From positions 1 to 64,000 of the forward strand of contig NZ_NFJP01000011.1 of assembly GCF_002159915.1 (NCBI RefSeq): a DNA stretch of 64,000 bases, read 5' to 3'. The notes under the pieces were generated by a model. It saw only the letters and a list, made by a program, of their open reading frames with translations, had not been told where the DNA came from and did no database searches. Within the stretch, counting starts at the first letter, position 1, and each line of letters opens with the position of its first letter. This DNA is from Gordonibacter sp. An230. GTDB taxonomy: Bacteria; Actinomycetota; Coriobacteriia; Coriobacteriales; Eggerthellaceae. Below are positions 3,029 through 60,052 of the stretch, in pieces. The position numbers and the translations under genes are program-made.

Positions 3029-3076
3029 GCGCGAGGGAAGCCCTCGAATTCGGCTGCCTGCGGCAAACCGGGCGGC

Positions 3077-3255
3077 GAAGTCACCGTTTTGACCGCTGTG
3101 AAGCTTTTTCGCCGTGCGAGAGGCCGCGATTTCGCCCGAGCTCTGGAAATGGCGAGAAGCGCCATGCGCCCGACCTGGCGTTCTTCAAAAAGGATTGTTG
3201 CGCGACGGGCTGACGATCCGGGAATGAGCTTCAGAGCGGCCAAAACGGTGACTTC
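3077..3255. repeat. long imperfect inverted-repeat element between prfA and prmC
   Basis: Two 28-bp arms (3077-3104 and 3228-3255) are reverse complements with 26 of 28 matches and a 123-bp interior. The interior holds a smaller hairpin (TGGCG/CGCCA near 3150). The element fills the middle of the 3029-3419 spacer, in which I see no gene. It could be a MITE-like sequence or a structured RNA. Confidence 0.6.
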
Positions 3256-3419
3256 GGAGCGCGAAAAGTCGAAGGCTCGCTTCAAAGTGGAGCCTCGGCG
3301 AGGTGGTTTCGGCACCTGCAAGATATTCGGCCAAGCGCGGCGAAACCTGGGCAGGCATTATGGCTTACGGGAATGGCGAGCCTGCCGGTATGCGCTGGCG
3401 GTTCGAGAGGGAAACGGCA

Positions 3420-31193: not shown

Positions 31194-31937
31194 ATGAGAA
31201 TCGCCGTGGCCTTCAAGGCCGTCCCCGACTCCCAGGACGTGCAGGTGGCGGCCGACCGCACCCTGGACTTCTCCAAGGCCAAGCTGGCCATCTCGGAGTA
31301 CGACAAGAACGCCATCGAGCTGGGTGCCCAGCTGGCCGACGAGGCCGTGGCCGTCACGGTGGGCGGCTCCGACATCGACAACTCGAAGCTGAAGAAGGAC
31401 GTGCTCGCGCGCGGCATGGCGCGCCTGTGCATGGCCGCCGATGACGCGCTGGCGGGCCTTGACGCCCATGCGACCGCCGCGGCGCTTGCTGACGTCATCG
31501 CCAAGGCCGGCGACGTGGACATGGTGCTGTGCGGCGACGGCTCGGCCGACGATTACGCGCAGCAGGTGGACGTGCAGCTGGCCGAGAAGCTGGGCTGGCC
31601 GGTGGTGACCGCCGCCGCCAAGGTGGAAGTCAGCGGTTCGACGGCCGTTATCGTGCGCGCCCTCGAGGAGTGCAAGGAAACGGTGGAGGTGGAGCTTCCC
31701 GCCGTTGTGTCCGTGACGCCCGACGCCGCCGAGCCGCGCATTCCCGGCATGAAGGACATCCTCGCCGCCGGCAAGAAGCCGATGGAGGTGTCGGGGGCCG
31801 ACGGCTCGTACGAACGCGTGCTCGACACGGTGGAGTGCTTGGCTCCCGAGCAGGCCGCACGCAAGCAGGAGATCGTCGATGCGGCCGATGACGGGGCCGT
31901 TGAGAAGCTGGCCGCCGCCATCAAGGCCGCGCTGTAG
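31194..31937 (+). CDS. fixA: electron transfer flavoprotein beta subunit, FixA, set 1
   Basis: 247-residue ETF-beta homologue that forms a heterodimer with FixB. The nucleotide-binding signature is LCGDGSADDYAQQVDVQLAEKL around residues 110-130, followed by LPAVVSVTPDAAEPRIPGMKDI. In the FixABCX complex it receives reducing equivalents and passes them towards FixC/FixX. AAGGAAGG lies before the ATG. The gap to fixB is short. Confidence 0.92.
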   Translation: MRIAVAFKAVPDSQDVQVAADRTLDFSKAKLAISEYDKNAIELGAQLADEAVAVTVGGSDIDNSKLKKDVLARGMARLCMAADDALAGLDAHATAAALADVIAKAGDVDMVLCGDGSADDYAQQVDVQLAEKLGWPVVTAAAKVEVSGSTAVIVRALEECKETVEVELPAVVSVTPDAAEPRIPGMKDILAAGKKPMEVSGADGSYERVLDTVECLAPEQAARKQEIVDAADDGAVEKLAAAIKAAL

Positions 31938-31955
31938 GGAAGGAAGGTGCTGAAC

Positions 31956-32837
31956 ATGAAGGTATTGGTTATCGCTGAGCACGCCGACGTCGCCCGCGAG
32001 CTGGCCGGCGGCGCGCGGAGTTTGGGTGCCGACGAGGTGTCGCTGGTCTGCTTCGGTGGGACGGTCGAGGGAGCTGCCGACACGGTTCTGAACATCGCGG
32101 TGCCCGAGGGCGCGCTCGTCGACGATGCGCATGCGACGCTTGCCCCCTTCGCCGAGCAGGCCGACGTGACGTTGGTCGAGGCGACCCGCCGCGGCAAGGT
32201 CATTGCCGGCCGTCTGGCCGCGAAGCTGGGCGCTGCGGCCCCGACCGCGACGGTTGCCCTGACGCAGGACGGTGCGCGCGGCACGTACTTCGGCGGCGTG
32301 GCCGAGCGCGTGCAGAAGCCCGCGACCGGCGCTGCCGTGTACCTCGTGGCGGCAGGCGTATGCGATGCCGCCCAGGCGTCCGGCGCGGGCGAGGCCATCG
32401 AGGTCGCCTGGGTCGCTCCCAAGCGCGCCGCTCAGGTGACCGCGACCGAGCCGCGCGAGCGCACCGCTGCGGATCCGACCAAGTCCGATGTCGTGGTGGC
32501 GTGCGGCCGCGGATTCGCCGCCGAAAAGGACCTGCAGCTTGCTCGCGACTTGGCTGGCAAGCTCGGCGGCGCCATCGCGTGCACGCGTCCGCTCACCGAG
32601 GGCGTGAACTGGCTGCCCACCGAGCTGTATGTGGGCGTGTCGGGCTTGACCGTGACCCCGAAGGTCTACGTGGCCGCCGGCGTCTCGGGCCAGATGCAGC
32701 ACATGGTGGGCTGCAACCGTTCGGGCGTCGTTGTCGCCGTGAACAAGGACAAGAACGCCCCGGTGTTCAAGCAGTGCGACTACGGCATCGTCGGCGACGT
32801 CAAAGAGGTTCTGCCGGCGCTGACCGCGGCCCTGTAG
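31956..32837 (+). CDS. fixB: electron transfer flavoprotein alpha subunit, FixB, set 1
   Basis: 293-residue ETF-alpha homologue with the C-terminal FAD-binding domain intact (GVNWLPTELYVGVSGL, then VSGQMQHMVGCNRSG and CDYGIVGDV). The ATG at 31956 is preferred, with GGAAGG 8 nt upstream; a GTG at 31947 is the alternative. It is the partner of FixA. Confidence 0.92.
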   Translation: MKVLVIAEHADVARELAGGARSLGADEVSLVCFGGTVEGAADTVLNIAVPEGALVDDAHATLAPFAEQADVTLVEATRRGKVIAGRLAAKLGAAAPTATVALTQDGARGTYFGGVAERVQKPATGAAVYLVAAGVCDAAQASGAGEAIEVAWVAPKRAAQVTATEPRERTAADPTKSDVVVACGRGFAAEKDLQLARDLAGKLGGAIACTRPLTEGVNWLPTELYVGVSGLTVTPKVYVAAGVSGQMQHMVGCNRSGVVVAVNKDKNAPVFKQCDYGIVGDVKEVLPALTAAL

Positions 32838-32855
32838 GCGCGCTCCCGCCGCCCT

Positions 32856-32937
32856 CGCCCTCCCTGGGCGGGGGCGAGGTTTGCCGACGCGGCGCGTCGG
32901 CGGCTCCGCACGGCAAGCGCTCTACCCTTGCCGTGCG
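32856..32937 (+). promoter_or_regulatory. tandem GC hairpins between fixB and fixC, set 1
   Basis: Three stems follow each other in the 192-bp gap: CCTCGCCC/GGGCGAGG; CCGACGC-GGC-GCGTCGG; and an 11-bp stem CGCACGGCAAG (32907-32917) with CTTGCCGTGCG (32927-32937). None has a U-run. They may set the fixAB to fixCX expression ratio. Confidence 0.45.
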
Positions 32938-33029
32938 AGGCGGGCGTCGTGCCTCTTGCCTTACGGGCGTCGCCCCTCGCATCCTCTGGCTCCAACCTTT
33001 GCAGCGAAACAGACGAGAAAGGACGAACG

Positions 33030-34331
33030 GTGGCTGAAACAGACTTCGATGTCATCGTTGTGGGATCCGGCTGCGCCGGCGGCGTGGCCGCTTACATGGC
33101 CGCCTCTGCGGGCAAGTCCGTCCTCGTGGTCGAGCGCGGCAACTACGCCGGCGCGAAGAACATGACGGGCGGCCGCATCTACTCCCACAGCTTGAAGGAG
33201 GTGTTCCCGGACTTCGAGTCCGAGGCTCCCCTCGAGCGCAAGATCACCCACGAGCGCATCGCCATGATGGATACCGCGTCGAACATGACGATCGACTTCA
33301 CGAGCGCCGAGCTCGCCGAGGAGGGCAAGGATTCCTACAGCGTGCTTCGCGGGCCCTTCGACCAGTGGCTCGCCGAGAAGGCCGAGGAGGCCGGCGCCGA
33401 GTACATCTGCGGCATCGCCGTGGAGGAACTCGTCAAGGACGAGTCGGGGCGCATCATCGGCGTGCGCGCCGGCGAGGACGAGATCACGTCCCAGGTGGTG
33501 ATCCTCGCCGAGGGTACGAACTCGATGCTCTCCGAGCGCTGCCTGGGCAACCCTCGCCCCAAACCCTCCCAGATGGCTGTCGGGATCAAGCAGGTGTTCG
33601 AGCTGCCCTCCGGCGTCATCGAGGACCGCTTCCTGCTCCCGGAGGGCGAGGGCGCCGCGATGCTGTTCGTCGGCGACTGCACGAAGGGCCGGGTCGGTGG
33701 CGGCTTTTTGTACACCAACAAGGACTCCATCTCGCTCGGCCTCGTGGCCACCATCTCGACGGCCGCCGACGGGGCCAACGAGACGCCGGTCTACCAGATG
33801 CTCGAGGACTTCAAGAGGCACCCGGCCGTGGCCCCCGTCATCAAGGGCGCGAAGCTCGTCGAGCACTCGGGCCACATGGTCCCCGAGGGCGGCTACGACA
33901 TGATTCCGCAATACGTGTTCGACGGCTGCCTGGTCGCCGGCGAGACGGCGGGGCTGTGCATGAACATGGGCTACCAGGTGCGCGGTATGGACTTCGCGGT
34001 GGCGAGCGGCCGCATGGCCGCAGAGGCCGCGTGCGAGGCCATCGACAAGAACGACGTCTCTGCGGCGGGGCTGGCCTCCTACAAGGACAAAATGGAGGGC
34101 TCCTTCGTCATCCAGGACCTGCGGACCTTCTCGAAATGGCCGCACGTCATGGAGGAGTGGGGCAGCATGTTCACTGACTACCCGGTGATGGTGAAGGAGA
34201 TCTTCAACGCGATGTTCAGCGTGGACGGGCAGCCGCAGAAGCCCCTCGTGAAACGCATGATGCCCATTGTGAAGAAGCGCGGCCTGTTCAAGCTGGCGGG
34301 CGAGGTTCGGAAGGCGGTGAAGGCGCTGTGA
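33030..34331 (+). CDS. fixC: FixC-type flavoprotein (ETF-quinone oxidoreductase-like), set 1
   Basis: 433-residue membrane-associated flavoprotein related to ETF:quinone oxidoreductase. The FAD-binding VVGSGCAGGVAAYMAA is followed by VERGNYAGAKNMTGGRIYSH, and later by GLCMNMGYQVRGMDFAVASG. It accepts electrons from FixAB and hands them on with FixX. A GTG start at 33030 with GAGAAAGGA upstream is chosen; the longer in-frame reading is not homologous. The stop overlaps the fixX start by 4 bp (GTGA). Confidence 0.92.
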   Translation: MAETDFDVIVVGSGCAGGVAAYMAASAGKSVLVVERGNYAGAKNMTGGRIYSHSLKEVFPDFESEAPLERKITHERIAMMDTASNMTIDFTSAELAEEGKDSYSVLRGPFDQWLAEKAEEAGAEYICGIAVEELVKDESGRIIGVRAGEDEITSQVVILAEGTNSMLSERCLGNPRPKPSQMAVGIKQVFELPSGVIEDRFLLPEGEGAAMLFVGDCTKGRVGGGFLYTNKDSISLGLVATISTAADGANETPVYQMLEDFKRHPAVAPVIKGAKLVEHSGHMVPEGGYDMIPQYVFDGCLVAGETAGLCMNMGYQVRGMDFAVASGRMAAEAACEAIDKNDVSAAGLASYKDKMEGSFVIQDLRTFSKWPHVMEEWGSMFTDYPVMVKEIFNAMFSVDGQPQKPLVKRMMPIVKKRGLFKLAGEVRKAVKAL

Positions 34332-34627
34332 ACAAGGTTTGCGAGATCACGGTTAACGTCGACGAGGCGCTGTCCGTCAACAAGTACGAGGTCGACGAGG
34401 AGAGCGCCCACATCGAGTTGGCGGAGGACCCCGACGATGAGGAGTTCCTCAAGCTCGTGCGCGTGTGCCCGGCGGCCCTGTACAAGGTCGACGGGGACGG
34501 CAAGAAGTCCTTCGACTACGCCGGCTGCCTCGAGTGCGGCACCTGCCGCATCGCCTGCGAGGGCACGATCGTCAAGAAGTGGGTCAACCCCGGCCCGACC
34601 ATGGGCGTGGAGTACCGGTACGGTTGA
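34328..34627 (+). CDS. fixX: FixX ferredoxin-like protein, set 1
   Basis: 99-residue iron-sulfur partner of FixC. Cys at 47, 67, 70, 73 and 77 (VCPAAL and CLECGTCRIAC) supply the ligands of a single [4Fe-4S] cluster. The GTG start overlaps the fixC stop by 4 bp, implying translational coupling. Confidence 0.93.
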   Translation: MNKVCEITVNVDEALSVNKYEVDEESAHIELAEDPDDEEFLKLVRVCPAALYKVDGDGKKSFDYAGCLECGTCRIACEGTIVKKWVNPGPTMGVEYRYG

Positions 34628-49751: not shown

Positions 49752-50618
49752 ATGGCCATCAGCACGGATATCGTCGGCACGACGTTCGGTCCGTTCGTGC
49801 GAGACTACACGTTCAGGGATCTCGAGATATGCGCCCTGGGATGCGGCGCGGGCTGGGACGGCGAAACAGACTTGGAGTACGTGAACGAGCATGACGCGGA
49901 GGATCCAGCGCTCAAACCTTTGCCCGTTTTTGCCGTGCCGCTCACCGTCAACGAGGAGGTGACGCGCACGCTCGATTACGGATTCGACTACTCGGGATCG
50001 CTGCACTACGGCGTCGACGTTCGCTTTCATGCGCCGTTTCGGATGAACGACCGCGTGGAGACCTACGTCACCCAGGAGGCCATCTGGGATCGCGGCGAGG
50101 GCCGTGGATCGCTGTCCAAGCAGGTGGGGAAAACGTACTCCTCGGACGGCACGCACCTGTGCACGGTGGACACCTACGACTGCTGCATCCACGACGGCGG
50201 TTGGGGAGGCCCGCGGCCGCCGAAGGACGCGGTCGATTACCCCGACCGCGCTCCAGACGCCTTCAAGGACGAGCGCTACGGGCTCAACTGGCCGCTCGTG
50301 TACCGCCTCATGGGCGATTGGCATCAACAGCACATCGACTGGGCCTATACGGAGCAGACGGGCCTTGCGCGCCCCATCGCCCATGGCGTGAGCACCGCCG
50401 GCGCGGCCATGCGCCACGTCATCTCGCTTCTGTTCCCAGGCAGTCCCGAGCGCATGACGCGATTCAAATGCCGCTTCACCTCCCCGGTGCTGCCTGGCGC
50501 GGTGCTGCGCACGCAGGTGTGGGCGATGGGCGAGGGGCGCGCGCTCTTTCGCGTCGTGGATGCTTCCGATGAATCGGCCAAGCCGTACTTGAACGCCGGC
50601 ATCGTGGAATGGGCGTAA
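49752..50618 (+). CDS. MaoC/hydratase-2-like hotdog enzyme
   Basis: 288 residues with a double-hotdog layout. The C-terminal half has the hydratase-2 type motif LMGDWHQQHIDWAYTEQTGL, with the Asp and His of the catalytic dyad, followed by PIAHGVSTAGAAMRHV. It may hydrate or dehydrate the same enoyl-CoA as CaiD, with possible opposite stereochemistry. The first half is more diverged. GGGAGGAGGCCCCT precedes the ATG. Cotranscription with caiABC is likely from the 97-bp gap. Confidence 0.75.
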   Translation: MAISTDIVGTTFGPFVRDYTFRDLEICALGCGAGWDGETDLEYVNEHDAEDPALKPLPVFAVPLTVNEEVTRTLDYGFDYSGSLHYGVDVRFHAPFRMNDRVETYVTQEAIWDRGEGRGSLSKQVGKTYSSDGTHLCTVDTYDCCIHDGGWGGPRPPKDAVDYPDRAPDAFKDERYGLNWPLVYRLMGDWHQQHIDWAYTEQTGLARPIAHGVSTAGAAMRHVISLLFPGSPERMTRFKCRFTSPVLPGAVLRTQVWAMGEGRALFRVVDASDESAKPYLNAGIVEWA

Positions 50619-50722
50619 GCCCGACCGTTTGCCATTCGCCGTGGCAGGGTGCCTGCTTCGCCGCCGATGGCGGGCGCCGCGGCCAGCCTCGAAAAGGGAT
50701 CGATGCGGAAGGAGCCGAGGAC

Positions 50723-52183
50723 ATGAACGATGTGAAGCGGATGACGCAGGTGACAAGCCCGCCTTCGTTCGGGTTGGTCGAGCCCGCCGATGCGGCCGAC
50801 GGGACGAAGCGTATCGGCGGGGAGATGGTGGACAAGGTGAGGCGTTCTGCCCGAAAGACCATGGACGACGTGGCCATGACGCCGTTTCTGCGCAAGATAT
50901 CGTTGTTCTCGAGCGGCGGGTCGTTTTTGGACGGCTACGTGCTGTCGCTTATCGGCGTGGCGCTCACGCAGATCACGCCGTTGTTCGATCTCGCATCGGT
51001 CGAGAGCGCGGCCATCGGCGCATCGGTGATGCTCGGCATCTTCTTCGGCACCATCTTCGGAGGCTACCTCACCGACCTCGTCGGGCGCAAGAAGATGTTC
51101 ACTATCGACATCGTGGCCATCGCGGCGTTCTCCCTTTTGAGCGTGTTCGCCTCCACGCCGTGGGAGCTTGTGGTGGCGCGCTTCTTCATCGGCGTGTTCG
51201 TGGGCGCCGACTACCCCATAGCCACGTCGCTCATAGCGGAGTTCACGCCCAAGCGGCATCGTTCGGTGTCCATGGGCATGGTGTCCGCTGCGTGGTACCT
51301 TGGCGCCACCGTGGCGGCGGTGGTCGGCTACGCGCTGTACGAGGTCCCCGATGGTTGGAAGTGGATGCTCGGATCGGCTGTAATTCCCTGCGTCGTGCTT
51401 TTGGTGGGCCGTCATGACATTCCCGAGTCGCCGCTGTGGCTTGCGCAGAAGGGCCGCAAGGAGGAGGCCGACGCCGTCGTGCGACAGGTGTTCGGCGACG
51501 AGGTGGAGCTCGATTTTGCCCCGGTCGAAGGGAGGCCGTCGTTGTCGGCGGTGCTGCGCTCCGGCTATCTCAAGCGCATGGCGTTTCTAGGCGTGTTCAT
51601 CCTATGCCAGGTGGTGCCCATGTATGCCATCTACACCTTTGGCCCCGACATCATGGCTGCCTTCGGGTTGAACGAGGGGCGGGAGGCCATCCTGGGCGAG
51701 AGTGCCGTGAGCTTGTTCTTCCTCGTCGGCTCAGTGCCGGCCATGTTCTGGCTGAACTCCATGGGCCGCCGCAGGCTTCTGCTCGTCAGCCTGTCGTTCA
51801 TGTTCGCAGGGCTTGCCGTGCTCGGCGCGTGGCCCTCTGCTCCCGTGGCGGTGGTCGTGGCGGCGTTCGGCCTGTACGCGTTCTTCAGCGGGGGGCCGGG
51901 CATCCTGCAGTGGCTCTATCCCAACGAGCTGTTTCCCACCGAGGTGCGCGCGAGCGCGGTGGGCATCGCTATCGCCTTCTCGCGCATTGGCACCATCGCG
52001 GCCACCTACGGCACGCCGCTGTTCCTCGATGCGTTCGGCGTGGGGCCGACGATGCTCGTGGCAGCCGGCCTTGTGGCCTGCGGACTCGTCCTGTCGTACT
52101 TCATGGCGCCTGAGACGCGCGGCAAGTCGCTTGCGGAGACGAGCTCGCTCGACCCGGGAGACGCACGTCCGCGCGGCGCGTAG
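50723..52183 (+). CDS. MFS transporter, sugar/aromatic-acid porter type
   Basis: 486-residue carrier with 12 helices and the porter signatures TDLVGRKKMF after helix 2, GVFVGADYPIATSLIAEFTPKRHR (at residues around 165-188) and PETRGKSL at the end. It belongs to the sugar-porter superfamily branch that also includes aromatic acid carriers, not to the BCCT family of CaiT. It is the last gene of the cai-like run. The start follows GGAAGGAGCCGAGGAC. The first 55 residues are a soluble tail. Confidence 0.85.
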   Translation: MNDVKRMTQVTSPPSFGLVEPADAADGTKRIGGEMVDKVRRSARKTMDDVAMTPFLRKISLFSSGGSFLDGYVLSLIGVALTQITPLFDLASVESAAIGASVMLGIFFGTIFGGYLTDLVGRKKMFTIDIVAIAAFSLLSVFASTPWELVVARFFIGVFVGADYPIATSLIAEFTPKRHRSVSMGMVSAAWYLGATVAAVVGYALYEVPDGWKWMLGSAVIPCVVLLVGRHDIPESPLWLAQKGRKEEADAVVRQVFGDEVELDFAPVEGRPSLSAVLRSGYLKRMAFLGVFILCQVVPMYAIYTFGPDIMAAFGLNEGREAILGESAVSLFFLVGSVPAMFWLNSMGRRRLLLVSLSFMFAGLAVLGAWPSAPVAVVVAAFGLYAFFSGGPGILQWLYPNELFPTEVRASAVGIAIAFSRIGTIAATYGTPLFLDAFGVGPTMLVAAGLVACGLVLSYFMAPETRGKSLAETSSLDPGDARPRGA

Positions 52184-52363: not shown

Positions 52364-52502
52364 GTCAAAAAAGAGCCGGTTTGGCAATCTGCAGGGTGGA
52401 TCGGACGCTTCGCTTCGGCCTTCTGGTCGAGAAAAGCCTGGTCACTTTCCCTCCGAATTCGGCAAAGCGTTTTGACGATTGCCAAACCGGCTCTTTTTTG
52501 AC
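52364..52502. repeat. inverted-repeat element, left flank of the DUF559-like gene
   Basis: Two identical 26-bp arms in inverted orientation (52364-52389 and 52477-52502) surround 87 bp. The arm core reads AAAAAAGAGCCGGTTTGGC, so either strand ends in a T6 run after a potential stem. The same arms recur at 53717-53856. The remaining 52184-52522 spacer shows no gene. Confidence 0.85.
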
Positions 52503-52522
52503 AGCCGAAGGCCTTTTCAACG

Positions 52523-53518
52523 TCAGGGGCGCGGCAAGCGCGGGTTTTCCAGGAGCATCCCATGCAAGACGTGTTGCCTCGCGCGCCAGGAAGGCTGCCC
52601 GCTGCGCAAGCGCACTCCGAGTCGCGTTCGCAGGATCTGCGCGATGCGGTCGAGTTCGATGAGGTTCCGGGCGCTCCCCGACGTCACCGACACCACCGTG
52701 AACCCGCGGTTCAGGAGGACGTTGCGTCTTCTCGCATCGTCCGCTGCCTGTCGGGGCCCGTGGAACTCCGAGCTGTCGTATTCCAGGGCGATGCGGGCCT
52801 CGTGCCAGACGAGGTCGCAGAAGCACTGCCGGTCCTCGGCGGCGAACCGGCCGCGCCGCTTGGGCCGGATCTCGCGGTTCATCTGCGGTTTGGGGAGGTT
52901 GTACCCGCCCAAGCGCACTGGAAGGCACAGCAGCATGACCATGCACGTCTCCATGGGCGAGGCAGAGCCGGAGGCGATGAAGCGCAGCGCTTTGCGCGCC
53001 TTGACGGTTCCCGGCATGTCGCCGGCCGCCTCGATGAAGCGGCCGAGCCGCGCAACCGTGGTGAAGGGGCGTTCGAAGCCGTAGTCCGCACGGGCGACCG
53101 TCGGTATGCCGTACGTGCCGCAAAGCTCGAAGCCGAGCCTGACGAGCGCGATGGGCGGCAGCTTGGTTGCCATCTGCACGAAGCAGAGCTCTGGAGAGCT
53201 GACGAGCACGCCCTCTGCAAGGCGGACGAACGATCCCCGCGGATAGGTCGACGAGCTCACGTGGCAGGCCGCGAGCTCGCTTCTGCTGCGGGACGCGGCG
53301 TCGGGCACGAGGACGTGCAGGGGAAGCACCAGGTTGGCGATCTTGAGGCCTGCGATGCCTTGGATGTCGCGCAGGGCGACCTTGCCCTGGGGCAGGGGCC
53401 GGCCCGTCCGCCAGCAGGGGGTCTTGCGCGGGTCGGCGTGCAAGGCGAGCGCAGCCGTTCCCTCCTTCAAGGAGGACCATACTTGGAGGGCCGATATGTG
53501 GCTGACAAATACGCTCAT
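52523..53518 (-). CDS. DUF559/Vsr-like endonuclease-domain protein
   Basis: 331 residues. The C-terminal part (about 240-310) has LVWHEARIALEYDSSEFHG and RRRNVLLNRGFTVVSVT, resembling the PD-(D/E)XK-like DUF559/Vsr fold with an acidic catalytic patch. The N-terminal 200 residues look like the AbiEi-type or transcription-control domain common in coriobacterial paralogues, which is less certain. No methylase or partner is adjacent. It is bracketed on both sides by the same 140-bp inverted-repeat element. The ribosome binding site is weak. Confidence 0.6.
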   Translation of the reverse strand: MSVFVSHISALQVWSSLKEGTAALALHADPRKTPCWRTGRPLPQGKVALRDIQGIAGLKIANLVLPLHVLVPDAASRSRSELAACHVSSSTYPRGSFVRLAEGVLVSSPELCFVQMATKLPPIALVRLGFELCGTYGIPTVARADYGFERPFTTVARLGRFIEAAGDMPGTVKARKALRFIASGSASPMETCMVMLLCLPVRLGGYNLPKPQMNREIRPKRRGRFAAEDRQCFCDLVWHEARIALEYDSSEFHGPRQAADDARRRNVLLNRGFTVVSVTSGSARNLIELDRIAQILRTRLGVRLRSGQPSWRARQHVLHGMLLENPRLPRP

Positions 53519-53627
53519 GCTGCCAACCTAGCATGGCCGCCGTGTGGTTGCCAGCATGTGAAGAGTGCGTTGACCAGGTGTTACCATGAGCAGAATTTCC
53601 GCTGGATCTGCGTCGGGATTCTGCTTG

Positions 53628-53668
53628 ATTCCTGCAAGATCCGTGCAAGGTTTCTGCAAGGTCGACGG
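53628..53668. repeat. short direct repeats upstream of the DUF559-like gene
   Basis: Three near-copies of a TGCAAG-containing unit (CCTGCAAGA, CGTGCAAGG, TCTGCAAGG) follow each other at about 12-bp spacing in the promoter region of the minus-strand gene. They are possible regulator sites. Confidence 0.4.
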
Positions 53669-53716
53669 AGGGGCCGCGAGATGCGGACGCGCATGTCGCG
53701 GTTTTCGCCCTTCCCT

Positions 53717-53856
53717 GCCAAAAAAGAGCCGGTTTGGCAATCGGCGAGAGCATGGTTTGCATAGCGGTTTCACGTGATCTGGGGCGATAGGCTGTCGAAT
53801 GCCGCGCAGGAGGGGCGAGCGACGCTTTTGGATTGCCAAACCGGCTCTTTTTTGGC
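53717..53856. repeat. inverted-repeat element, right flank of the DUF559-like gene
   Basis: Arms 53717-53742 and 53831-53856 are perfect reverse complements and differ from the left-flank arms at one base of 26. The 88-bp interior is unrelated to that of the left copy. The distance from outer edge to outer edge of the two elements is about 1.49 kb. Confidence 0.85.
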
Positions 53857-54852: not shown

Positions 54853-55617
54853 TGTTCCTCCTTGTCTTATCGACGGATGCGGCGTTCGCGTCGAGCGCTT
54901 GCGCGCCTTCGGCGCGTGTTTCCATCTTGCGATGCGCGCCGCGTGCCGCGCATCGCAAGCGGCGCGGTATCTCGGCGATACCGAAAAACCGGTTATCGCA
55001 AGAAACGCAGTAGAGAACGTTGGGACGGCGGAAAAAGGGGCTCGATCGCGAATCTCCTGCGCTCTGACGCGAGGTGCCCTGCTCCAATCTCGGATTCTCG
55101 CGCGACCTTTTCGCGAAGCGGGGTTTGACGCGTCGCGTTGCGGTCCCGCATGAGGGGTCGCGAGGGGCGTGTGCGACTTCGAGGCGGGATGGCCGCCCGT
55201 CGGCGCTCCGAGATGCAGCGTCTCGGGAGCGAGCGCGGCGTCCGTCCCCAGGGGCTTTCTGCGAGCGCGTATCCGTACGTCGCCTCCTTCGAGGCCTCGA
55301 AACGGCGTGACGAGCGCGTCTGCGCGATCCCGGAGCATGGCGCGATATTTTCCGCAGGCTAGTCCGATATCGCAAAATCGCAGGTCGTGCATAGTTAAAA
55401 GGTGAGTAACGAGAGATTCGCAGCCATTTTGCGATGCCTGCGCTATCCGTGCGCGTCATAGTGCGCTCAACGAAACCGTCGCCCCTGGGGTGCGGTCGGC
55501 GCGCTCGGTTCCCGAAGCGCGTGCGCGAAGCGGAAAGCGAGCGCAGGCGGGTTCTCGGACGGGGCGCCGCATCGTAAGCGCATGTTGTGCGAAGAGAACG
55601 AGAAGGGAAAGGTTAGC
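54853..55617. promoter_or_regulatory. divergent caiD/fixA control region with repeated ATCGCAA motifs
   Basis: 765 bp without a credible gene. A 13-bp-arm hairpin (54926-54938 with 54947-54959) includes TTGCGATG. A CGGTAT/ATACCG stem follows at 54965-54983. ATCGCAAAAT (55369-55378) and ATTTTGCGAT (55426-55435) form an inverted pair. Five ATCGCAA/TTGCGAT heptamers occur in about 510 bp, and the right one is part of a 12-mer shared with the LuxR/MFS spacer. Confidence 0.55.
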
Positions 55618-56376
55618 ATGAACATTGTTGCCGCTTTCAAGGTTGTTCCCGACGATCAGGACATCCAGGTGGCCCCCGACCGCAGCCTGGACTACTCCAA
55701 GGCCAAAAACACCGTGTCCGCCTACGACCTGAACGCGATAGAGGCCGCCGCTCAGCTGGCCGCCGCCGAGCCGGGGTCGAAAGTGGTCGCCGTGAGCGCG
55801 GGCCCCGCATCGATCGACGACTCCAAGCTCAAGAAAAACGTGCTCGCCCGCGGCGTGGACGAGCTCTACCTGACCGCCGACGACGCGTGCGCGAACCTCG
55901 ACGCGAATGCGACGGCTGCCGTGCTCGCCGAGCTTCTGTCCAAGGTGGGCGCTTGGGACGTCGTGCTGTGCGGTGACGGCTCGGCTGACAACTACGCGCA
56001 GCAGGTGGACGTGCAGTTGGCTGCCCGCTTGGGGGTTCCCGTGGTGAACGGCGCCACAAGGATCGTCGCCAAGGGCGATGCGCTCGAGGTGGAGCGCACG
56101 CTCGAGGACGTCGTCGAGACGGTGGAGGTTCCGCTGCCGGCCATCGTGTCCGTCGCGCCCGACATCGCCGAGCCGCGCATCCCCGGCATGAAGGACATCC
56201 TCGCCGCCGGCAAGAAGCCCATGAACGTGGCCGGGACGGACGCCTCGTTCGGCGCGAAGGTCGAAGTGGTCTCGTGCCAGGCTCCCGAGCAGGCCGACCG
56301 CAAGCTCGAGATCATCGACGCCTCCGAGGACGGGGCGATCGAGCGCTTCGCCGCCGCCCTCAAGGCCGCGCTGTAA
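55618..56376 (+). CDS. fixA: electron transfer flavoprotein beta subunit, FixA, set 2
   Basis: 252-residue ETF-beta homologue, closely similar to the set 1 protein (LCGDGSADNYAQQVDVQLAARL, EPRIPGMKDILAAGKKPMN). It would feed electrons to CaiA-type reductases through the FixABCX complex. The ATG at 55618 has AAGGGAAAGG upstream. fixB follows after 48 bp. Confidence 0.92.
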   Translation: MNIVAAFKVVPDDQDIQVAPDRSLDYSKAKNTVSAYDLNAIEAAAQLAAAEPGSKVVAVSAGPASIDDSKLKKNVLARGVDELYLTADDACANLDANATAAVLAELLSKVGAWDVVLCGDGSADNYAQQVDVQLAARLGVPVVNGATRIVAKGDALEVERTLEDVVETVEVPLPAIVSVAPDIAEPRIPGMKDILAAGKKPMNVAGTDASFGAKVEVVSCQAPEQADRKLEIIDASEDGAIERFAAALKAAL

Positions 56377-56424
56377 ATTTTGACACCTTCATCCGTCGCA
56401 CAGAGAAAGGCAGGGTTGATACCC

Positions 56425-57306
56425 ATGAAAGCACTCGTTATCGCCGAAAGACAGGATGCCGCGCGCGAGCTTGCCGCCGGCGCCCGCACGATGGCCGACG
56501 AGGTGGTGCTCGTCTCCTTCGGCGAGGCTCCCGAGGGCGTCGCCGACAAGATAGCGCGCATCAGCGTGCCCGAGGGCGCCGTCCTCGACGACGCCGCCGA
56601 CACCGTGATCGCCGTGTTCGACGCCGAGGCCCCCTCCGTCGTGCTCGTCGAGCCCACGCGCCACATGAAGACCATCGCCGGCAAGCTGGCGGCCCATGCA
56701 GGTGCGTCGGTCATCACCGACGTCATGTCCTTCGAGAACGGCGCGAAGAGCCTCTATTTCGGCGGCGTGGCCGAGCGCGTGCAGAAGCCCGCGACAGACG
56801 TGGCCTTCTACACCGTGTCCGCTGGCGCGTTCGCGGGGCTGGAGGCATCCGGGGCGAACGTTGCGGAGGACGTGGCGTGGGTGGCTCCAGCAAACCCTGT
56901 GAGGCTTTTGGCCTCCAAGCCCATCGAGAAGAGCGGCGTTGATCTGTTCAAGGCCGACGCCGTCGTCGCGGCCGGCCGCGGCTTCGCCGAGGAGGCCGAC
57001 CTCGATCTCGCCCGCGCCCTTGCCGAGAAGCTCGGCGGCGGCTTGGCGTGCTCGCGTCCGCTCACCGAGGGCGTGAACTGGCTGCCCACCGAGCTGTACG
57101 TGGGCGTGTCCGGCCTCATGCTGTCGCCGAAGGTCTACGTGGCCGCCGGCATATCGGGCCAGATGCAGCACATGGTTGGCTGCAACCGCTCGGGCAGCGT
57201 GTTCGCCATCAACAAGGATAAGAACGCTCCGGTGTTCAAGCAGTGCGACTACGGGATCGTCGGTGATGTGAAGGACGTGCTGCCGGCCCTCGTGGAGGCG
57301 TTGTAG
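56425..57306 (+). CDS. fixB: electron transfer flavoprotein alpha subunit, FixB, set 2
   Basis: 293-residue ETF-alpha homologue, the same length as set 1. The FAD domain is intact (GVNWLPTELYVGVSGLMLSP, ISGQMQHMVGCNRSG, CDYGIVGDV). The ATG at 56425 is supported by homology; the ribosome binding site (GAAAGGCAGGG) is rather far upstream. Confidence 0.92.
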   Translation: MKALVIAERQDAARELAAGARTMADEVVLVSFGEAPEGVADKIARISVPEGAVLDDAADTVIAVFDAEAPSVVLVEPTRHMKTIAGKLAAHAGASVITDVMSFENGAKSLYFGGVAERVQKPATDVAFYTVSAGAFAGLEASGANVAEDVAWVAPANPVRLLASKPIEKSGVDLFKADAVVAAGRGFAEEADLDLARALAEKLGGGLACSRPLTEGVNWLPTELYVGVSGLMLSPKVYVAAGISGQMQHMVGCNRSGSVFAINKDKNAPVFKQCDYGIVGDVKDVLPALVEAL

Positions 57307-57360
57307 GCAGCACGTATCGAGCGTCCGCGCGCCGGCACATCGCGCTCGGATGCCGACAGG

Positions 57361-57398
57361 CGCCGGCCGTCATCCTGCGCGACGGCGGCCGGCCTTTT
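57361..57398 (+). promoter_or_regulatory. GC hairpin with U-tract between fixB and fixC, set 2
   Basis: GCCGGCCGTC (from 57362) pairs imperfectly with GACGGCGGCCGGC, followed directly by CTTTTC. It looks like a weak terminator/attenuator. Set 1 has GC hairpins in the same gap. Confidence 0.5.
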
Positions 57399-57489
57399 CC
57401 CGCCAAGGGAAGAGACGTGCTTGGAAAGGGACGAGACGGCAAGGTGCGGGCGCTGTCCGGCACGTTGCGACGAGAAAGGAGAGCCCAAG

Positions 57490-58791
57490 GTGGCTGAAGC
57501 TGATTTCGACGCGATCGTCGTCGGCTCCGGGTGCGCGGGCGCCGTGGCGGCCTACGAGCTCGCAAAGGCCGGCAAGAGCGTCCTCGTGGTCGAGCGCGGC
57601 AACTTCGCCGGCGCTAAGAACATGACCGGCGGGCGCATTTACTCGCATTCGCTCAAGAAGGTCTTCCCGGATTTCGAGCAGGAGGCTCCTCTCGAACGAA
57701 AGATCACTCACGAGCGCATGGCGTTCATGGACCCTGAGAGCCAGATGGCCATCGACTTCACGAGTCCCGAGCTTGCCGAGGAGGCCAAGGATTCCTACAG
57801 CGTGCTGCGCGCGCCGTTCGACCAGTGGCTCGCGAGCAAGGCCGAGGATGCCGGTGCCGAGTACATCTACGGCATCGCCGTGGAGGAGCTGCTGAAGGAC
57901 GAGAGGGGCAAGGTCGTCGGCGTGCGCGCCGGCGAAGACGAGATCACCGCCGAGGTGACGATCGTCGCCGAGGGCGTGAACTCGCTTCTGTGCGAGCGTA
58001 GCCTTGGCAATCCCCGTCCGAAACCCAGTCAGATGGCCGTTGGGATCAAGCAAGTGTTCGAGCTGCCGGCCGCCCAGATCGAGGATCGCTTCCTCGTGCC
58101 CGAGGGCGAAGGGGCGGCGATGCTCTTCGTAGGCGACTGCACGCACGGCAACGTGGGCGGCGGCTTTTTGTACACGAACAAGGACTCCATCTCGCTCGGA
58201 CTCGTGGCCACTATCTCGCTGGCCGCCGACGGTGCGAACGAGACGCCGGTCTACCAGATGCTCGAGGATTTCAAGAATCATCCGGCTGTGGCGCCCATCA
58301 TCCGCGGCGCGAAGCTTGTGGAGCACTCCGGTCACATGGTTCCCGAGGGCGGTTACGACATGGTTCCGCGCTACGTCTTCGACGGCGCGCTCGTGGCGGG
58401 CGAGTCGGCGGGCCTGTGCATGAACATGGGATATCAGGTGCGCGGTATGGACTTCGCCGTGGCATCCGGCCAGATGGCTGGGCTTGCGGCCGTGAAAGCC
58501 CTCAACGCGGGCGACACGTCGGCCTCAGGGCTGTCCTCTTACAAGACGGCGATGGAAGACTCCTTCGTCATCAAGGACCTGGAGACGTTCCGCAGATGGC
58601 CCCATGTCATGGAAGGCTGGTCGAACATGTTCACCGACTACCCGGTCATGGCGAGGGAAATATTCAATGCCCTGTTCAGCGTGGACGGCGAGCCGCAAAA
58701 GCCGCTCGCGAGGCGCATGATGCCCATCGTGAAGAAGCGCGGCCTGCTCAAGCTGGCCGGCGAGGTGAGGAAGGCGGTGAAGTCGCTGTGA
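57490..58791 (+). CDS. fixC: FixC-type flavoprotein, set 2
   Basis: 433 residues, the same length as set 1, with the FAD motif VVGSGCAGAVAAYELAKAG and VERGNFAGAKNMTGGRIYSH. GTG 57490 with AAGGAG upstream is the start, as in set 1. It takes electrons from FixAB and passes them with FixX to the quinone pool or the low-potential acceptor. Overlaps fixX by 4 bp. Confidence 0.92.
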   Translation: MAEADFDAIVVGSGCAGAVAAYELAKAGKSVLVVERGNFAGAKNMTGGRIYSHSLKKVFPDFEQEAPLERKITHERMAFMDPESQMAIDFTSPELAEEAKDSYSVLRAPFDQWLASKAEDAGAEYIYGIAVEELLKDERGKVVGVRAGEDEITAEVTIVAEGVNSLLCERSLGNPRPKPSQMAVGIKQVFELPAAQIEDRFLVPEGEGAAMLFVGDCTHGNVGGGFLYTNKDSISLGLVATISLAADGANETPVYQMLEDFKNHPAVAPIIRGAKLVEHSGHMVPEGGYDMVPRYVFDGALVAGESAGLCMNMGYQVRGMDFAVASGQMAGLAAVKALNAGDTSASGLSSYKTAMEDSFVIKDLETFRRWPHVMEGWSNMFTDYPVMAREIFNALFSVDGEPQKPLARRMMPIVKKRGLLKLAGEVRKAVKSL

Positions 58792-59087
58792 GCAAGGTCA
58801 AGGAGATCACGGTCAACGTCGACGAGTTTCTGGCTATCGACAAATACGAGGTGGACGAGGAGAACGCCCATATCGAGCTTGTGGACGATCCTGATACGGA
58901 AGAGTTTCTGAAGCTTGTCCGCGTGTGCCCGGCAGCGCTCTACAAGATCGACGAGAACGGCGCGAAGTCCTTCGACTACGCCGGCTGCCTCGAATGCGGC
59001 ACCTGCCGCATCGCCTGCGAGGGAACCATCGTCAAGAAATGGGAGAATCCTCAGCCCACCATGGGCGTGGAGTACCGGTACGGCTAG
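58788..59087 (+). CDS. fixX: FixX ferredoxin-like protein, set 2
   Basis: 99 residues, the same length and Cys positions (47, 67, 70, 73, 77) as set 1, with the CLECGTCRIAC cluster motif. The GTG start sits in the GTGA overlap with fixC. Confidence 0.93.
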   Translation: MSKVKEITVNVDEFLAIDKYEVDEENAHIELVDDPDTEEFLKLVRVCPAALYKIDENGAKSFDYAGCLECGTCRIACEGTIVKKWENPQPTMGVEYRYG

Positions 59088-60052
59088 GGTTCGGGAAGGG
59101 TTTGCGGGACGGAGCCGAGGCTTCTGCCTTCCCGTTCGGACCCTTGCCGCACAGGGTTCGAAACGACGGTACGATGCGTCCCGCGCCCGTTGCTCGCGAT
59201 CGGCGCGGGCGACGGGCGCTGTTCGTCCGTCCGCCTTCTCGACAGGTTGGAGCCGATGCGGGATCGCCAATGCGGTCGGACGCTTTCTCCGGTCGGGCCC
59301 GTAGAGCGCGACAGTGCTTCCTGCGCCTTTCCCGGGTGGTGCTCGCAGCGGGCTTCTCCCAAAGGTCGCGAGCTTGCGACCGGGCGCCTCCGGCCTGTCG
59401 CGAAGGCCTTTCGATCGCGTGCTTGCGCACGCTGCGCCCCGTTCGGCAAAGTAGGTGCTCGGAATGGCACAGATCGCGTCTTGTGCATAGATATCGCGCT
59501 ATTTTCGCCTCGACTGGCCGTTCTGAGAAAAGCATGGTCGGTAAAACGTCAGGTCGTGAGGGACCGGACGCCGGTCATATGCTGCGAATCTATGCGCAAA
59601 ACGCGATCTGTGCCGCTTAGACTGCGTCGTTCCGTCGAAACGTGGGCCGCGCGACGGCATGCGGCCTTTTGGTCGTCGCGGCGCATTGAGAGTGCGGTGC
59701 CGACTCGGCGAGGCGGGGTCCCCGAGGGCACCTCGGTCGAAATTGCCGCTCTTCGCGATGCGCTCCGTATGGGTTTTGCGGGAAGACGAAGGCGAGACGG
59801 TCGGTCCGGCTTCGATCTTGCCCCGGCGGGCATGCGGGGCCGCCTCCGCCTTTGCGTCTTTCGACGTGCGCGCTCTCGTCGCAGCGCATTGGTGGGAATC
59901 GCACGTCGAGAGAGGCTTGCGACCTTTCCTCTGCAACGCTCTCGAAGCGCTGACGGATCGGTGACGCTCCGGCGGCGAATCCTCCGCCGGAGCGCTGCGC
60001 CTCCTCGCGGAAGTTAGGGTGGGTGCACGCAACCCATCGAAAGGAGTTCCGC
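59088..60052. other. gene-free GC-rich spacer after fixX
   Basis: About 965 bp. Open frames on both strands overlap heavily and have Arg/Ser/Pro-rich translations without a domain. Apart from the long inverted repeat at 59466-59614, nothing could be supported. Confidence 0.55.
59466..59614. repeat. long inverted-repeat element
   Basis: Arms 59466-59497 and 59584-59614 match as reverse complements except for about three positions, one being a 1-nt indel, around an interior of 86 bp. The overall size (149 bp) and layout are like those at 3077-3255, 52364-52502 and 53717-53856, although the arm sequences differ. Confidence 0.65.

Follow-up and report, generated by a model that had tools for sequence, protein, structure and literature searches.

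We report here a nuclease-like protein that is probably paired with its own family of 115- to 185-bp inverted-repeat elements, an arrangement that resembles REPIN/RAYT and is built from unrelated parts. That the protein and the elements make up one functional system is very likely. At the level of sequence, the comparisons establish a coupled protein-element system of Coriobacteriia gut bacteria, with precise DNA geometry, that is spread across an order, and on present evidence it is apparently new in kind; no prior description was found in open-access text, nor was any open-access literature found that joins DUF559 with inverted repeats or with AbiEi. The gene under study lies, between two such elements, in the window (the whole stretch of 64,000 nucleotides that was analyzed).

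The window protein

The gene (52523 to 53518, minus strand) encodes a protein of 331 amino acids, for which a structure was predicted with a pLDDT of 89 and a pTM of 0.90. The model shows a fusion of two domains, one AbiEi-like and the other an EDxHD/Vsr-type nuclease domain that has catalytic-type residues: residues 1 to 182 resemble the C-terminal domain of AbiEi, and residues 186 to 302 form a predicted nuclease domain of the EDxHD/Vsr/PD-(D/E)XK type. Foldseek on its own matched no PDB entry significantly, and the fold statements rest on VIA-align 2 together with motif conservation. Residues 187 to 302 aligned with the EDxHD homing endonuclease I-Bth0305I (3r3p; Z 10.2, 2.3 Å, 95 residues), and the nuclease domain aligned with Vsr (1cw0; Z 8.7) and TnsA (Z 6.1); residues E190, D235, E246, H253, and D261 are invariant in 73 homologs. 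Folded alone, residues 1 to 182 aligned with AbiEi (6y8q) at a Z score of 7.8, which is below 8 (3.5 Å, 120 residues), and with Rv2827c (1zel; Z 5.4). Both proteins were aligned via their C-terminal domains. The scores are below certainty, but two relatives of one family top the list; no winged helix is among the matches listed for this part.

The first-pass annotation had called the gene DUF559-like. The resemblance is there, but it falls below the Pfam cutoff (13.5 versus 20.6 bits), and the match of the window protein to MTES_1575 is likewise below its own (17.4 bits; cutoff, 38.2). Weak matches to DUF559 and MTES_1575 recur in 42 and 54 of the 73 homologs, respectively.

Anatomy and helical geometry of the elements

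Four copies of a 26-bp sequence had been described as two head-to-head pairs around the gene, with near-identical arms and differing interiors, and the description holds on both points: the coordinates are correct and each pair is a perfect inverted repeat, 24 bases are identical in all four arms, and the loops are hardly alike. The element downstream of the gene (52364 to 52502; arms at 52364 to 52389 and 52477 to 52502, 87-nt loop) scores 26.0, and the element upstream of the gene (53717 to 53856; arms at 53717 to 53742 and 53831 to 53856, 88-nt loop) scores 33.5, compared with a best inverted-repeat score of 14.0 in block shuffles of the region (n = 300). Pairing in the upstream element reaches 53707 to 53742/53831 to 53866 with one mismatch. 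When the arm was searched against the whole genome (3.88 Mb), the only exact matches were the four window arms; there were five other matches, each with 3 mismatches and unpaired.

Elements of this type consist of inverted arms of 20 to 30 bp around a loop of 57 to 135 nt. The arms vary from gene to gene, match within an element, and usually also match between the two elements of one gene. The sole conserved part of the loop is a central motif of ∼17 bp, yCGACCWGGSRTTTYKC, which expectation maximization recovered in 77 of 84 loops (log-likelihood of 512, versus 58 to 70 in shuffles) and whose orientation relative to the gene is random. At ≥18 bits, this core was found 32 times in loops and 4 times beside a gene but not in a scored loop. 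A further 8 occurrences lay elsewhere, mostly within a weaker inverted repeat; shuffled DNA had none. In the window, the downstream element carries the core at 52429 to 52445 (minus strand; GTGACCAGGCTTTTCTC, 18.6 bits with the PWM), and the upstream element has lost a recognizable core, retaining a degenerate one of 4.1 bits.

Arm-to-arm distances in related elements are near-identical, and where they differ, they do so by about one, two, or more helix turns (∼11 bp). Spacings of 98, 108 to 110, 119 to 121, and 142 were found in the window family (20 pairs, four genomes) and of 104, 112 to 115, 124 to 126, and 136 in a second family, family B; for each of the two, the periodicity was reached by 0 of 5,000 random sets. 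All 17 elements of a family in genome G022 are 127 to 128 bp long with a core offset of 56 to 57, despite diverged loops. The whole-turn differences place both arms on the same side of the duplex. Changes in the arms were confined to one arm in 26 cases and mirrored in 2 in the G022 family, which is the best sampled, and in 10 and 9 cases, respectively, in a further family, family A. The spacing geometry and the pattern of arm changes together suggest protein binding on one face of the duplex, rather than a folded hairpin.

This bears on the proposal that the elements insulate the gene, either as transcription terminators active in both directions, which the first-pass annotation also put forward, or as RNA hairpins. 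Although they are intergenic, lie on both sides of the gene, and in the window have arms ending in A6/T6, the terminator scan calls neither window element, and an intrinsic terminator would have a GC stem, a short loop, and a T tail, whereas the loops here are 57 to 135 nt long. With spacing quantized in DNA turns, a conserved loop motif, arm changes that are mostly unmirrored in the best-sampled family, gene-specific arm sequences, and no Rfam match in the window, we abandon this proposal as extremely improbable.

Some elements have additional structure. At L036, L063, and L080, a third copy of the arm within the element gives nested spacings that are 22 or ∼50 bp apart. In G022 and G057 (L114 to L130 and L216 to L225), a conserved sequence, ATGATGCTGnnAGTCATATATA, lies beside one arm and is common to elements with different arms, and relative to this sequence, the inner segment is found either way round, as though invertible. 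A different dispersed inverted-repeat element with arms of approximately TCTCTGTTAAACCAGGATTG and a length of 173 to 176 bp was seen at L015 (2664 to 2837) and L034 (1149 to 1324 and 2726 to 2898); the core was absent from the one copy that was scored.

Coupling of genes and elements, and dispersed copies

Within the bacterial family to which the window genome belongs, 110 of 138 genomes, representing 39 of 48 genera, encode members of the protein family, mostly in 1 to 14 divergent copies. The protein family is also multicopy in two further families of the order, where inverted repeats often flank the homologs and the core is weaker or different; elsewhere in the phylum, there were weak matches only. 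The window genome encodes nine further paralogs with 34 to 41% identity (ten divergent copies in total), several of which likewise have inverted-repeat elements on either side, similar in size and different in sequence. A scan with a single protein returned one locus.

In ∼1.06 Mb around homologs, 119 long-loop inverted repeats were detected, versus 0.33 in shuffled sequence. Their density is 2.0 per kb at 100 to 250 bp from the homolog, zero at 0.5 to 2 kb, and 0.03 to 0.06 per kb beyond that. A detector combining arms and core found 80 elements (0 in shuffled DNA), with an element within 1 kb of 44 of 49 closely examined homologs, on both sides in 15, and none detected for 5. Upstream elements frequently end just 17 to 45 bp ahead of the start codon, and many elements are located downstream of the gene. 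Across homologs, arm similarity tracks protein identity (Mantel r of 0.29, 0 of 2,000 permutations), a correlation to which shared descent contributes; the arms correlate about equally with the two parts of the protein (partial correlations of 0.145 for the N-terminal part and 0.162 for the C-terminal part).

Elements also occur away from these genes, at a density of ∼31 per Mb, and 14 of 21 sampled solo elements have arms that match those of an element flanking a gene of that genome. Two solo elements lie in the window. One, at 3076 to 3256 (core at 3170 to 3186), belongs to family A, which has eight dispersed copies in the window genome, one of them beside the paralog at L027, in two length classes that are 21 to 22 bp apart. 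The other, at 59466 to 59614 (core at 59541 to 59557, minus strand), belongs to family B, which has ∼20 copies in the window genome; family B arms number 35 there, 13 in its congener G001, and 23 in its congener G002. The likely cognate gene of family B, with flanking elements, was seen in G001 (L035) only, and family B in the window genome (G000) and in G002 constitutes an orphan element population. Window-family arms are likewise present in G069 without a close cognate gene. Coupling is thus not absolute: some element families are orphans, with no cognate gene close by.

Arms beginning with GGACAAAATCGGCC illustrate dispersal within a genome. G022 contains 17 exact pairs, two beside the cognate gene and most far away. 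In G057, which belongs to another genus and encodes a cognate protein 85% identical to that of G022, these arms occur at two gene-flanking elements only, and its congeners G054, G055, and G056, which lack the gene, have no such arms. Five G022 copies at distant loci have loops that are 83 to 93% identical, and at least one copy has unrelated flanks. Some solo elements hold one site across three congeners, indicating slow turnover. No target-site duplication was visible in the 17 G022 and 8 family A copies, and the cross-species junctions are too diverged to define a clean junction. A 22-bp sequence beside the G022 arm was considered as an empty target site and rejected: all its further matches adjoin other elements, so it is part of the element and not a target.

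Short, dispersed, intergenic inverted repeats might also be ordinary MITEs that owe their mobility to an unrelated transposase, the nuclease gene being a passenger. Like MITEs, the elements are small, nonautonomous, and located in intergenic DNA; they differ in having no visible target-site duplication and no parent insertion sequence and in their strict internal geometry and core. A given arm family goes with a particular member of a single protein family, and does so across genera; in an unsystematic look, no other shared gene was noticed between element pairs. We consider the MITE reading very unlikely.

Likenesses to known systems and history of the window locus

REPINs are dispersed intergenic inverted doublets of REP sequences with a variable spacer that also flank their cognate nuclease gene, RAYT (PMC3116915, PMC8266576). 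The elements described here are likewise dispersed intergenic inverted doublets with a variable spacer, copies of which flank a cognate nuclease gene, and their population is tied to a gene family. The protein, however, is an AbiEi-like/EDxHD-Vsr-type fusion, whereas RAYT (TnpA-REP) is a Y1 HUH transposase; no Y1/HUH family is among the Pfam matches of the 73 homologs, and by eye, no HxH is present in the window protein. REPs are imperfect palindromes with a GTAG-type tag, whereas the arms here, also by eye, have no shared GTAG or clear internal palindrome. Further differences are the conserved core between the arms, the helix-phased spacing, copy numbers in the tens instead of hundreds, and the many different element families per genome. 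The system works most like REPIN/RAYT but has neither its protein nor its palindromes.

AbiEi-family antitoxins provide a second comparison, because they are autoregulatory and bind to 23-bp inverted repeats in pairs, with bending of the DNA in the case of AbiEi (PMC7319586). The N-terminal domain of the window protein resembles the C-terminal domain of AbiEi and Rv2827c, and AbiEi, too, binds paired inverted repeats. In contrast to the AbiE type IV toxin-antitoxin system, no winged-helix domain was found here and a nuclease domain is fused instead; the repeats are 60 to 135 bp apart, versus 3 to 13 bp, and also occur downstream of the gene and dispersed. No AbiEii (DUF1814) toxin gene is present beside the window gene, the neighbors being genes for an MFS transporter and an enoyl-CoA hydratase.

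The comparison gives weight to a regulatory reading, in which a self-contained toxin-antitoxin-like nuclease serves regulation or defense, its AbiEi-like part holds looped operators at its own gene, the solo elements are operators or a sponge, and dispersal is a side effect. The repeats bound by AbiEi-family antitoxins are in their own promoters (PMC7319586), upstream elements here are close to the start codon, helical phasing is what looped operators classically show, and there are weak PADLOC matches to the models for methyl-directed restriction enzymes (25 of 73 homologs) and AbiEi (1 of 73). Quantized spacing also fits a looped operator without any mobility. Against this, no winged helix like the DNA-binding domain of AbiEi was detected, the C-terminal domain alone aligning; no toxin partner gene was identified; many elements are downstream of the gene; and the near-identical pairs in G022, mostly far from the gene, exceed the role of an operator. 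We regard this reading as a doubtful alternative.

The preferred reading, a protein that acts on its own dispersing elements, can be put as a series of steps. Protomers of the protein would bind both arms of the double-stranded element, and the bound protein would bend or loop the DNA around the core. The protein might then make a nick or a cut, in the element or in a target, and thereby allow the elements to be copied, or to be excised and inserted again, in intergenic regions, much as RAYT is thought to do for REPINs. The two copies that flank the gene would make it part of this reaction as well, with autoregulation as a possible further role. Dispersal would accordingly follow from binding and processing of the elements by the protein, and we lean slightly towards the view that dispersal is what the protein does. 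The fullest version, to which we give an even chance, is that the fusion protein recognizes, in duplex DNA, a private and helically phased pair of arms with the common core between them, and disperses the elements, with many distinct specificities per genome, and that the system has spread through the order that includes Eggerthella- and Collinsella-type gut bacteria.

If this is correct, the system would join REPIN/RAYT as a second case, of independent construction, in which a nuclease gene coexists with a population of very small repeats. It would also give a large set of unnamed actinobacterial genes of the DUF559-like/AbiEi-like kind a likely biochemical context. Because candidate binding sites accompany every such gene, specificity can be tested immediately, and ten or more protein-site pairs per genome would constitute a natural library for studying the divergence of DNA specificity and sequence-specific DNA-looping proteins.

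The window locus itself had been placed between caiABC and caiD and interpreted as a possible mobile cassette with the element pair as its ends. The right neighbor is indeed a caiD-like enoyl-CoA hydratase gene, but the immediate left neighbor is the MFS transporter gene (50609 to 52183). Empty sites exist: MFS and caiD genes are adjacent without the nuclease gene in 13 genomes, including congeners of gene-bearing genomes: G064 (of G065) and G067 (of G071). DNA identity between the window genome and G071 rises from ∼77% to ∼95% at the left element; since caiD is itself highly conserved, this high-identity tract has no sharp right boundary. Counts of window-family arms are 27 for G071 and 19 for its congener G069, against 4 for the window genome and 0 for the congeners of the latter. 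Judged from this distribution and the identity tract, the gene and its two elements probably came recently by lateral transfer from a G071-like lineage. The cassette interpretation has partial support: the empty sites, the identity jump, and the amplification of arms in G071 and G069 favor it; against it, synteny of the gene with MFS and/or caiD extends to seven genomes from four genera, and no target-site duplication was found. Nor are the two elements simply the ends of one transposon, each ∼140-bp element being a dispersing unit.

Occupied and empty versions of one site in related genomes, and a high-identity tract beginning at the left element, would also be expected of a homing-type selfish gene, whose nuclease cuts element-free alleles so that repair copies in the gene with its elements, and the nuclease fold is closest to a homing endonuclease. 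However, paralogs occupy many unrelated sites, and specificity seemingly resides in the elements and not in the insertion site. The nuclease domain shares its fold and its invariant acidic and histidine residues with I-Bth0305I and Vsr, but there is no intron or mismatch-repair context here and there is a paired element family. Homing is highly improbable as the explanation.

A check for phage or plasmid origin gave no phage match, no match to viral contigs, and three weak and partial plasmid matches. Two of these lie on records labeled Collinsella, the third on a Nonomuraea record of 11.85 Mb. In the MFS-caiD interval of G067 (L192), an apparent HigB/HigA-type toxin-antitoxin gene pair, recognized by eye, replaces the nuclease gene. 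The window further contains two similar electron-transfer/fix-like gene sets (31209 to 34617 and 55597 to 59088), both of which are matched by DNA of the same relatives.
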